A stretch of DNA of 64,000 nt from an uncultured Bacteroidia bacterium (GTDB taxonomy: Bacteria > Bacteroidota > Bacteroidia > Bacteroidales > UBA932), in contig CACYWN010000010.1 of NCBI GenBank assembly GCA_902778105.1, positions 17,857 to 81,856 on the forward strand. Direction: 5' to 3'. The stretch's first letter is position 1. Each line of letters starts with the position of its first letter. Positions 23,691-25,927 of this stretch are shown here, piece after piece. Under the pieces are notes generated by a model that saw only the letters and a program-made list of their open reading frames with translations, did not search any database and was not told the DNA's origin. The position numbers were made by a program, and so were the translations under genes.

Positions 23691-24477
23691 CCGCCAGTCC
23701 CAGGATGACGGCCGGAACGGAGGCTTCGGCCCCGAAGTCGCCTCCTGTCATCCAGACCGGGCCTTCAATCACAGGGGAGATCAGCGAACAGGTCTCATTC
23801 CCGGATACCGCAAAACCGAAGACCGGTCCCTGGAAGAAATTCCACGCCCAATGGATCCCGATGGGAAGCCACAGGCTCCCGGACCATTTGTAGGCTGCGC
23901 CCAGCAACAGACCGGCTTCGATGGTGATGGCGATGGACGACCACACCGTGGCGTTGTCATTGGTAATGTGGAGGAAACCGAACAACAGGGACGAAAGGAC
24001 CAGGGCAGCCAGGGTCCCCCACCGCTCATCCAGCATCCGGAACACGATTCCCCGGAAGAGGACCTCCTCCCCGACCCCGACGACGAGGAACTGGAACAGG
24101 CTCTTGACCAGGGAAACCGTATCCCACTGGACCGAGCCGATGCGGTAGCCCCCCAGCAGGGCGATGCAACCGGTGAGCAGGGCGAAAAAAACGGTGCCGA
24201 TGCCGAATCCGCCCCACAGGTCGGCATTCAGTTTCCGCATCGCCAGGTCCGGTGCCCGCCGGTATCCGTCAATCCGGCGCCATACGGTATACAGTCCCAG
24301 GATGGCGCCCGAACTCAGCAAGGCCAGGTTGATATAGATCCAGACAGGAATGGGATGTTCTTCATCCACTACCACCGGCAGCTGCGAAAAGCCCAGGATG
24401 AGGGTGAATGCGAGGAATCCGGCAACAAGCAGGAGCAACCACTTCCACCAGGCCAGTTTTTTACCCGTTTCTTTCAT
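23638..24477 (-). CDS. CPBP-family intramembrane metalloprotease (Abi/CAAX type)
   Basis: 279 aa with about eight membrane segments. The family motifs are visible in order: EEVLFRGIVFRML (EExxxR), then FLHITND, then the C-terminal HWAWNF. Members are membrane-embedded glutamate-dependent metalloproteases, some used in prenyl-protein processing or bacteriocin self-immunity; the target here is unknown. The start lies 17 bases inside the end of the methyltransferase gene, so the two are coupled. The 3' end overlaps convergent nth by 53 bases. Confidence 0.85.
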   Translation of the reverse strand: MKETGKKLAWWKWLLLLVAGFLAFTLILGFSQLPVVVDEEHPIPVWIYINLALLSSGAILGLYTVWRRIDGYRRAPDLAMRKLNADLWGGFGIGTVFFALLTGCIALLGGYRIGSVQWDTVSLVKSLFQFLVVGVGEEVLFRGIVFRMLDERWGTLAALVLSSLLFGFLHITNDNATVWSSIAITIEAGLLLGAAYKWSGSLWLPIGIHWAWNFFQGPVFGFAVSGNETCSLISPVIEGPVWMTGGDFGAEASVPAVILGLAVTILFFYTPSRTAGTSR

Positions 24478-25897
24478 TTCTCTTTGTGATTATCAAATAA
24501 TTACCAGGTTCGGAAGGGGCATCGGCCCGAACCCCGAACACATGGATGTCTCCCCCGGAAACGCAGCCGGTCTTCCGGCGCAGAAGTTCGGAGGTCATCG
24601 GGATGTTCCGGGCCGTCACCTCGGCCTGCGGCCAGCGCTTTCCCACCTCCTTCATCGTCCGGTTGTTCAAAGGCAGCACTTCCAGGACCTCGAAAGTCTT
24701 CCCGAACAGCCGCAGTTCCTCCGGAACCGCCTCGCCCACATACAGATGCGTATGCTGGCCCAGTTTGGTCAATCCAAACCCGCACGGCAGCCCGAACGCC
24801 CCGGCCTTGAGAAGGGCCTTTCCAGGTTCGAAGAGACAGATTTCTCCACTACGCTTCGCTCCGGTCGAAATGACAAAGGATGACGCTCCGGGCGCAACAA
24901 CCGGATTTCCGACGGATCCTGAGCCGGTTGCTGAGCCTGTCGAAGCAGCCGCAGGATCGGAGGGAATCGCCATCACCGAGCCGTCTTCAACCGCGAAAGT
25001 CGATCGGAGACCGTCCCATTCCCGGTCCAGCAGGAACAGCAGTTCCTTGCACTCCCCTCCCGACGCTACGACGTGTACCTCCCGCACATGCTCCAGCCGC
25101 TTGCAGGCCATGGTAATATCGGCCATCGGCGACAGTTTCAGAAGCACGTACCGGCTCGCCGCGAACAATTCCGGCAGCAAGGCCAGCACATCCGGCTGGC
25201 ACTCCTCGATCAGAAACACCTTCTTCCCGTCCTCCGCCCTCCGGGCAGGGTCCAGATAGATGACGTCCGGTTCGAATCCGTCCAGCAATTCCGCGACTTT
25301 TCCGGGCTCCACCCGCTCATTCCGGAACCGCACATTCTCCGCCCCCAACTCCTTGAAATTCAGCCGGGTCGCATGCACCAGCGACTCATTCATCTCATTG
25401 TACAGGACCGCTTCCGCCACTTGCGAAAACGCCCAGCTGTCCACCCCCATTCCTCCGGTCAGGTCGGCAATCCTCGGGCGGGAGGACACACCCCCTGAAA
25501 CCGTCTCCGCTTCGCTCCGACCCCTCCCACAGGCTTTGTCTCCATCGTCAGAAAGCGAGCTTTCTGCCTCGGATCCAAACCCTGCGGGCCCCTCCCTCTT
25601 ATGCGGCCGAGGGTGGCCACAGGTTTCAGGGGGTGTGCCCGCCCGCCCGGCACCAGCCGCTAATGAAGCCTTATATCGGGCGGTTTCCGAGGAGCTGCAC
25701 TGTTCGCCGGAGAGGCGGGATGGATAGACCAGGGAGGGAACTGCGTACCACTGAGGAACCTTGGTCCAGAGTTTCCTCCTCACTTCCAGCGTCGTGACGG
25801 CAAGGTCCAGGTCGATGTCCGGGTACTTGTCCCGGGACAGCAGGAGACGGACCGGATCGTCCTGCGCGTGTTGCAATATGAAGTCAGTCAAAGTCAT
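24461..25897 (-). CDS. Class I SAM-dependent methyltransferase (THUMP-like family) with two palindromic in-frame insertions
   Basis: 478 aa from ATG 25897; the further ATG at 25918 lies in the TATTTTTG promoter. Recognisable family parts are YPSRLSGEQCSSSETARYKASL, SAM motif I RIADLTGGMGVD (about 142-153), VIYLDPARR, LLKLSPM and the C-terminal CLFEPGKALLKAG and LPLNNRTMKEVGKRWP. As I remember the family, it is near 390 aa. The excess falls in two places: residues about 83-141, encoded by an inverted-repeat element at 25475-25650, and residues about 313-354, encoded by a repeat at 24835-24960. Both keep the frame and are low-complexity (Gly, Ser, Pro, Ala). A nucleic-acid methylation role is likely but unproven. 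Overlaps the downstream CPBP start by 17 bases. Confidence 0.85.
   Translation of the reverse strand: MTLTDFILQHAQDDPVRLLLSRDKYPDIDLDLAVTTLEVRRKLWTKVPQWYAVPSLVYPSRLSGEQCSSSETARYKASLAAGAGRAGTPPETCGHPRPHKREGPAGFGSEAESSLSDDGDKACGRGRSEAETVSGGVSSRPRIADLTGGMGVDSWAFSQVAEAVLYNEMNESLVHATRLNFKELGAENVRFRNERVEPGKVAELLDGFEPDVIYLDPARRAEDGKKVFLIEECQPDVLALLPELFAASRYVLLKLSPMADITMACKRLEHVREVHVVASGGECKELLFLLDREWDGLRSTFAVEDGSVMAIPSDPAAASTGSATGSGSVGNPVVAPGASSFVISTGAKRSGEICLFEPGKALLKAGAFGLPCGFGLTKLGQHTHLYVGEAVPEELRLFGKTFEVLEVLPLNNRTMKEVGKRWPQAEVTARNIPMTSELLRRKTGCVSGGDIHVFGVRADAPSEPGNYLIITKRNERNG
24835..24960. repeat. Dispersed repeat inside the methyltransferase gene (C-terminal copy)
   Basis: Contains an inverted repeat CAACCGG (24898-24904)/CCGGTTG (24924-24930). 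Next to it is GGTTGCTGAGCCTGTCGAAGCA, which matches 20 of 22 bases at 57741-57762. The minus-strand translation includes FVISTGAKRSGEI and STGSATGSGSVGNP, low-complexity protein unlike the enzyme around it. Confidence 0.7.
25475..25650. repeat. Palindromic element inside the methyltransferase gene (N-terminal copy)
   Basis: A perfect 16-base inverted repeat (CACACCCCCTGAAACC at 25487-25502 and its complement at 25622-25637) is flanked by CGGGCGGG (25475-25482) and CCCGCCCG (25638-25645). A second perfect palindrome, CAGAAAGC-GA-GCTTTCTG, lies inside at 25549-25566. The element is read through in frame by the methyltransferase gene. Confidence 0.75.
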
Positions 25898-25907
25898 CTT
25901 TGCTTTG

Positions 25908-25915
25908 CAAAAATA
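25908..25915 (-). promoter_or_regulatory. -7 promoter element (TATTTTTG) of the methyltransferase gene
   Basis: Fits TAnnTTTG on the minus strand and ends 11 bases before the ATG at 25897, which would leave a leader of only a few bases. Confidence 0.55.
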
Positions 25916-25927
25916 CATAATAATCGT

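Follow-up and report, generated by a model that had tools for sequence, protein, structure and literature searches.

A dispersed palindromic element carried in frame in a putative methyltransferase gene of an uncultured Bacteroidales bacterium

The methyltransferase gene and its palindrome

Within the stretch of 64 000 nucleotides analysed here (the window, taken at its full length), a methyltransferase gene reads straight through a long palindrome. The locus raises the questions of what this segment is, how its two arms remain complementary and whether it is kept in the protein.

The host gene lies at 24461–25918 on the minus strand and encodes a putative methyltransferase of the PG_1098 type (485 residues), for which the matches to PF22013 and PF18096 are both above their cut-offs. 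The open reading frame is uninterrupted across the palindromic element, as the initial annotation had stated, and the element corresponds to residues ~90–148. Inverted-repeat analysis of the window places the element at 25475–25649 (175 bp), with arms of 28 nt that are complementary at 26 of 28 positions (93%) and a spacer of 119 nt. The 16-base inverted repeat that first drew attention to the locus was found where it had been described, at 25487–25502 and 25622–25637, as was the flanking outer pair CGGGCGGG/CCCGCCCG, and the two together form the 28 nt arms. When up to two mismatches are allowed, the window contains two occurrences of a 15-base arm motif where 0.10 would be expected, a count reached in none of 100 shuffles.

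The element is assigned to the plus strand from the orientation of its body in model R1, on the basis of the inverted repeat, the model match and the dispersed copies described below. Its left arm (25475–25502) and right arm (25622–25649), both on the plus strand, form the closing stem and enclose a body of three hairpins and probably a pseudoknot. Hairpin 1 (GTCTCCGCTTCGCTCCGAC) occupies 25503–25521 on the plus strand and is defined by the sequence and an alignment of 24 other copies. Hairpin 2 (25526–25588, plus strand; CCCACAGG...CCTGCGGG) has an enlarged loop, as in the copy in yggS, and was assigned from the sequence and the match to that copy. A CCCTC motif at 25594–25598 (plus strand), the proposed first strand of the pseudoknot, could pair with GAGGG at 25609–25613, which lies within hairpin 3 (25602–25621, plus strand; TGCGGCC GAGGGT GGCCACA), itself assigned from the sequence and the alignment. 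The five pseudoknot pairs are invariant in the 24 copies, CCCTC included, and such invariance is by itself uninformative. In other types of the element the two strands, compared by eye, read CCCGT/ACGGG, CCCAT/ATGGG and CCCCC/GGGGG.

Comparison with homologues indicates how much the element adds to the protein. The interval between the EQCSS and DLTGG motifs is 261 nt in this gene versus 84, 84, 96 and 99 nt in four element-free relatives, which have merely a short linker at the element site; therefore ~54–59 residues are added by the element (the original estimate was ~58). In 3LL7, the only solved relative found, five residues lie between the aligned blocks versus 62 in this protein. An AlphaFold2 model built from 25 aligned sequences has a mean pLDDT of 83.1, with 309 of the 485 residues at 90 or above. 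Because residues 102–144, within the insert, have pLDDT values below 50 in this model, the insert is probably a disordered loop. Predicted peptides of the insert include SEAETVSGGVSSR and EGPAGFGSEAESSLSDDGDK.

The methyltransferase gene also contains another insert that resembles a repeat (window positions 24839–24961, residues ~320–360), with TTTCGACCGGAGCGAAGCG at 24852–24870. Residues 325–338 and 340–344 within this second insert have pLDDT values below 50, and several relatives' matches stop at ~326–328 and restart at 359–362. A similar-looking motif is found at L163, at the repeat-rich spot corresponding to this second insert.

A dispersed family recognized by its body

A BLAST search of the host's own genome (2.66 Mb, 84% complete) with the element gave 30 rows, namely the element itself (one), its own arms (two) and 27 others, among which at least two copies give two rows each. 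The yggS copy (L002) matches the methyltransferase element at 94% over query positions 21–161, yet its outer arms are clearly different. The 15-base arm of the methyltransferase element was located exactly twice in the own genome, each time inside this element. A genome search with the arm had been proposed; the family does exist and is reached through its body, while the arm itself is confined to this element. The outcome that had been named as a refutation, an arm occurring nowhere else in the genome, was thus literally observed, but it is a poor test of family membership here, since the arm is private to its locus and the body is the part found again elsewhere.

A covariance model was built on 24 copies (18 from the own genome and six from relatives), leaving out five of the 29 copies then in hand, the methyltransferase element among them. 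This model matches the omitted element at 25487–25637 on the plus strand with 68.8 bits. At a threshold of E ≤ 0.001 it finds 29 copies in the own genome, counting those of diverged types, of which 21 (L061–L081) were read as full main-type copies, ten genic and 11 intergenic. The alignment shows that the body between the arms is conserved across copies, and the family is detectable only via this body. The elements are ~100–190 bp in size with a closing stem of ~20–28 bp. A chance palindrome is ruled out by the dispersed BLAST matches, the arm-motif shuffles and the covariation over 24 copies.

Matches were found in 38 of 119 genomes drawn from the host's family (11 of 25 genera) and in four of 198 sampled across the order, of which two lie outside the family; both searches used stricter filters, under which the own genome gave 25 and 18 matches versus 29, and the counts are lower bounds. 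One scan of named genome contigs for an exact 38-base body pattern found 17 stretches, all titled Bacteroidales or Bacteroidia and several titled as being from ruminant stomach or caecum. The host genus is presumably Cryptobacteroides. Carriage by viruses was considered and set aside, an exact 29-base body pattern, the sole pattern scanned, having no match in viral contigs. A known RNA family was likewise discarded as a candidate: a search of ten loci against Rfam 15 gave six matches up to an E value of 5, all below their gathering scores.

Copies were studied in ten host genes (the methyltransferase, yggS, truA, an M20 peptidase, ribF, an aminotransferase, trmB, murB, a murU-like nucleotidyltransferase and a glycosyltransferase), and the host flanks of the copies in the own and related genomes were placed by tblastn. 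This gave 44 rows, or 42 after two pairings of a copy with the wrong gene were removed; L097 and L118, which have no element coordinates, gave none. A single frame is read on both sides of the element in 38 of the 42 rows, many of which are orthologues, so that the number of independent events is nearer to the number of genes plus flips. Among the other four, the frame differs at L145, where the neighbourhood looks rearranged, and for L139, L153 and L163 just one of the two flanks was placed. No stop codon falls within the element in any of the 39 readable gene rows. Judged by eye, at least five frames of the body are used in genes, in both orientations. The cores are open in 35–46 of 50 copies for five frames and in 12 of 50 for the sixth, and the mean number of open frames per whole copy is 3.96 for genic copies (26 copies) versus 2.54 for intergenic copies (24 copies).

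The ribF gene carries the element in three related species. The G003 allele of ribF is shorter and was probably produced by loss of 78 nt, in frame, between AGGGT repeats. When RibF and MurB are aligned with solved structures, the insert is located between the matched blocks. In another genus a further gene, which we take to be rfbB, contains an in-frame copy. Since the frame is conserved, stops are absent and the ribF deletion is probably in frame, we infer that the genic inserts are translated and kept in the protein. The presence of a strong hairpin within essential genes invites the idea that the protein lacks the insert because the transcript is spliced or the ribosome bypasses it, as in the mitochondrial byp elements; none of the present results supports this. 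Under that explanation frame and stops would be irrelevant, yet 38 of 42 rows are in frame and none of 39 contains a stop; moreover, open frames are more numerous in genic than in intergenic copies and the G003 allele resembles a 78 nt in-frame loss between repeats. We regard removal or skipping as extremely improbable.

In the aminotransferase copies of two species (L143, 755–938; L152, 1201–1378) we observed an extra in-frame body segment, GPSLLCGRGW becoming GPSRFPGGSLTPYGPPGDICPSGCGRGW.

Arms, body and the folded strand

Over arm positions 5–20 the mean identity among 20 copies from the own genome is 34%, with a largest value of 88%. The innermost arm bases, AAACC/GGTTT, are conserved and the remaining arm follows a weak pattern, G-rich and then pyrimidine. 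The arms of each copy nevertheless pair: in the 24-copy alignment, both partners vary at 22 of 25 stem pairs. For the whole structure, 236 cells are changed on both sides versus 60.0 in shuffles, and 93.9% are paired versus 72.9% when shuffled and 36.6–47.5% when slid; 68 further pair types were counted, a value that the shuffles also give (64.7, with 100 of 500 reaching 68).

Many element sites are common to related species, and we compared 37 pairs of orthologous copies. Four pairs in which the body is flipped relative to the host (L123/L126, L139/L153, L145/L150 and L080/L120) were set aside, as were two with a misplaced edge. The edge lies inside the body in these two same-orientation pairs, L142b/L154b and L073/L150, and also in the flipped pair L145/L150. 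The remaining 31 pairs are not independent of one another, as genomes recur among them. They differ at 128 of 620 arm positions: 92 with both sides changed and pairing kept, 32 on one side and four mixed. Inclusion of the two misplaced-edge pairs gives 161 differences (103 both-sided, 43 one-sided and 15 mixed). A filtered count gives 79 changes (63 both-sided, 14 one-sided and two mixed), but the filter dropped pairs with fewer than ten of 20 like arm positions (ten of 37), and thereby truly diverged arms too. In L120/L132 the arms differ at 11 of 20 positions with flanks diverged by 8.6%, and in L142/L127 at eight of 20 with flanks diverged by 6.5%. The arms of these two pairs have changed faster than simple drift and correction would allow, and some arms have been largely replaced between close species, which counts against a simple version of the template switching proposed below. 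The core differs at 115 of 2222 positions (5.18%) versus 2990 of 25 002 (11.96%) in the flanks, over 33 same-orientation pairs with flanks of up to 400 nt per side. Such low divergence is unlike that of a purely neutral resident copy; it points to the body being selected at each site or to conversion among the copies.

The mismatches that remain in the stems bear on which strand folds. Read on the plus strand in 62 of 64 copies, 72 of 1054 pairs are mismatched: 37 of the A.C type, one of the G.T type and 34 others. When orthologues are merged by hand the ratio of A.C to G.T is about 32 to 2, and without the entries numbered 14 it is 25 to 2; several loci have a common A.C near position 14, a numbering that varies with the edge chosen. 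By hand-labelled context, the ratio is 21 to 1 where the mRNA is the plus strand, 16 to 1 in intergenic copies and 2 to 0 where the mRNA is the minus strand; outside the genus it is 4 to 1, a sample too small to judge. Since the ratio is similar across mRNA-strand contexts and between genes, the bias is not a matter of folding of the host mRNA. Because an A.C mismatch on the plus strand is a wobble-type pair on the minus strand, and these mismatches are almost all on that strand, the minus strand seems to be the folded strand. Folding predictions for two copies gave −62.4 versus −59.3 and −79.8 versus −72.7 kcal mol−1 for the minus and plus strands, respectively, and hairpin 3 together with the GAGGG pseudoknot could, from its sequence, form on the minus strand. 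Two explanations present themselves, namely selection on a folded minus strand, as RNA or single-stranded DNA, and a mutational bias between the strands; C-to-T change on the minus strand may be the source of the A.C bias. An earlier reading, in which the plus strand folded and the scarcity of G.T reflected copying at the DNA level, was abandoned as the mismatch count points to the minus strand.

Several of these observations would also be expected of a structured RNA or regulatory mRNA element, the stem and body of which are kept by ordinary compensatory selection on the folded RNA. The strong covariation across 24 copies, the joint change of the pseudoknot strands, the confinement of wobble mismatches to one strand, the low core divergence, the greater stability of the minus strand in both copies folded and the one-sided changes (32 of 128) are all in its favour. 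However, a function within the host mRNA itself is unlikely, since the element occurs in either orientation relative to its host genes and its orientation is reversed between species. In addition, A.C outnumbers G.T by 21 to 1 in plus-strand mRNA genes and by 16 to 1 in intergenic copies, and none of the ten loci reaches the gathering score of an Rfam family. On balance we consider this explanation unlikely.

In our view, the most consistent interpretation, to which we assign a probability of roughly 0.68, is that of a selfish, non-autonomous palindromic element with a body translated as a disordered loop and with template switching preserving the complementarity of its arms. During replication, one arm would serve as the DNA template for the other, and the same switching between arms would also yield the body flips. 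Arm co-change and body flips would both be explained because template switching is a single process that homogenizes arms and inverts spacers, as the available text of a study in yeast describes for inverted repeats (PMC8604942). The accessible part of a further report has template switching maintaining RNA stems (PMC8794818). The yeast coding-gene products are like the present case in their arm homogenization and spacer inversion, but, as described in that text, they are isolated repeats with inverted spacers of a few bases, whereas here, in a dispersed family, the inverted spacers would be of ~60–120 bases; the small size of the yeast inversions counts against the proposed explanation (PMC8604942). 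The conserved body, folded on the minus strand, would be the signal for a trans-acting enzyme that moves the element. Genic copies would be tolerated with the body usually open in five of six frames and located in surface loops, and the host protein would thereby bear a disordered insert.

A more specific proposal, which we put forward tentatively and consider doubtful, is that structure, rather than sequence, defines the ends of the element. The signal would be the body, one strand of which folds, with a pseudoknot, as single-stranded DNA or RNA, and replication would re-template the stem at each locus. If true, each copy would have private self-correcting terminal repeats, and a strand-specific enzyme in this Bacteroidales family would recognize the folded body. 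More generally, the many orthologous copies, each locus having its own stem, amount to repeated natural experiments on how arms are corrected and spacers inverted in bacteria. The element is also well suited to testing how hairpins are kept intact when DNA is copied.

Mobility and relation to known elements

The own genome has six Y1_Tnp-type genes (L211–L216), five of them above the Pfam cut-off. Inverted-repeat hairpins, mostly of differing sequence, lie near these genes. A diverged copy of the element is found near L214 (35.8 bits), and weaker matches near L211 and L212 (29.4 and 23.1 bits) look like those loci's own simple hairpins. Movement of REP elements uses one DNA strand. An element of the REP/BIME type moved by RAYT transposases would therefore fit the one-strand mismatch bias, and the Y1_Tnp-type genes with hairpins nearby are in its favour. 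Of 34 Y1_Tnp loci, however, only L214 has a diverged copy nearby, with L211 and L212 weaker; the fetched flanks of 28 loci in nine of the eleven other element-bearing genomes contained no element, and the remaining two of the eleven have no Y1_Tnp match. Apart from the diverged copy near L214, the element is thus not found beside RAYT genes as REP/BIME elements are, and we judge this explanation very unlikely. No mobilizing enzyme for the element was found among the Y1_Tnp loci and flanks of the element-bearing genomes, which also weighs against the preferred reading of a selfish element.

One comparison of an occupied with an empty site, at L151, shows CTCCG on both sides of the element, but the empty allele is too diverged there to establish a target-site duplication. 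A derivation of the arms from the target is unsupported, the empty relatives having a short linker only, and the insertion boundaries are approximate.

The initial annotation likened the palindrome to the RPEs of Rickettsia. The likeness holds for a dispersed palindromic family lying in frame in conserved genes; it does not establish membership of the RPEs, the element occurring in another taxon and its long stem not being conserved in sequence. According to the available text of two reports, RPEs and the WPEs of Wolbachia are palindromic repeats of 100–150 bp in open reading frames that leave the frame intact, lie in solvent-exposed positions and are similarly placed in orthologues (PMC3767692; PMC2229807). 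The trait of lying within reading frames without loss of frame is shared here (38 of 42 rows in frame and no stops in 39, many being orthologues). Occurrence in Rickettsia or Wolbachia is not, the 17 stretches with the exact 38-base pattern being confined to Bacteroidales or Bacteroidia titles. Compared with RPEs by description only, the present element belongs to another bacterial group and has a locus-specific outer stem with mostly two-sided change and bodies that flip. By analogy, the element works like the Rickettsia RPEs; it is set apart by its locus-specific, mostly co-changing stem, its flipping body and its one-strand wobble bias.

Two further systems invite comparison. Bacterial MITEs (the 107 bp Correia element, ERIC and YPAL/RU-2) resemble the element in their size of ~100–200 bp, their long stem-loops and, in some cases, in-frame gene fusions; in the text available, those listed have terminal repeats of 4–24 bp, apart from one without any, and four of the seven have target duplications, whereas here the long arms are non-conserved (PMC2229807). 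Conserved terminal inverted repeats, as in MITEs, are therefore absent, as the 34% mean identity over arm positions 5–20 in 20 own copies indicates. The coding genes of Nematomorpha mitochondria contain perfect inverted repeats with concerted arms, for which template switching is a possible mechanism; there, in the available account, both arms encode conserved protein and no shared dispersed body is described, whereas here the body recurs and the arms are extra (PMC6649704). In the accessible part of PMC5771137 the MITEs of Porphyromonas gingivalis are treated as non-coding.

No protein-coding palindromic elements in Bacteroidales appeared among the literature matches listed, a coverage mostly outside subscription journals, and the present copies look like a family of such elements outside the described Rickettsia and Wolbachia groups. 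Gene callers probably annotate such inserts as ordinary protein sequence. The copies in genes also raise the matter of how RibF, MurB or TrmB accept ~40–60 foreign residues.

Lastly, we note some unusual arrangements of copies. At L151, L171 and L225 two copies in opposite orientation lie within ~60 nt of one another. The diverged copies L082–L086, on contigs C32 and C40, have arms of GTGAGGGGTGTGAGGTGTCC and adjoin a transposase-like open reading frame; on C32 two of the diverged copies are ~1.9 kb apart in opposite orientation.
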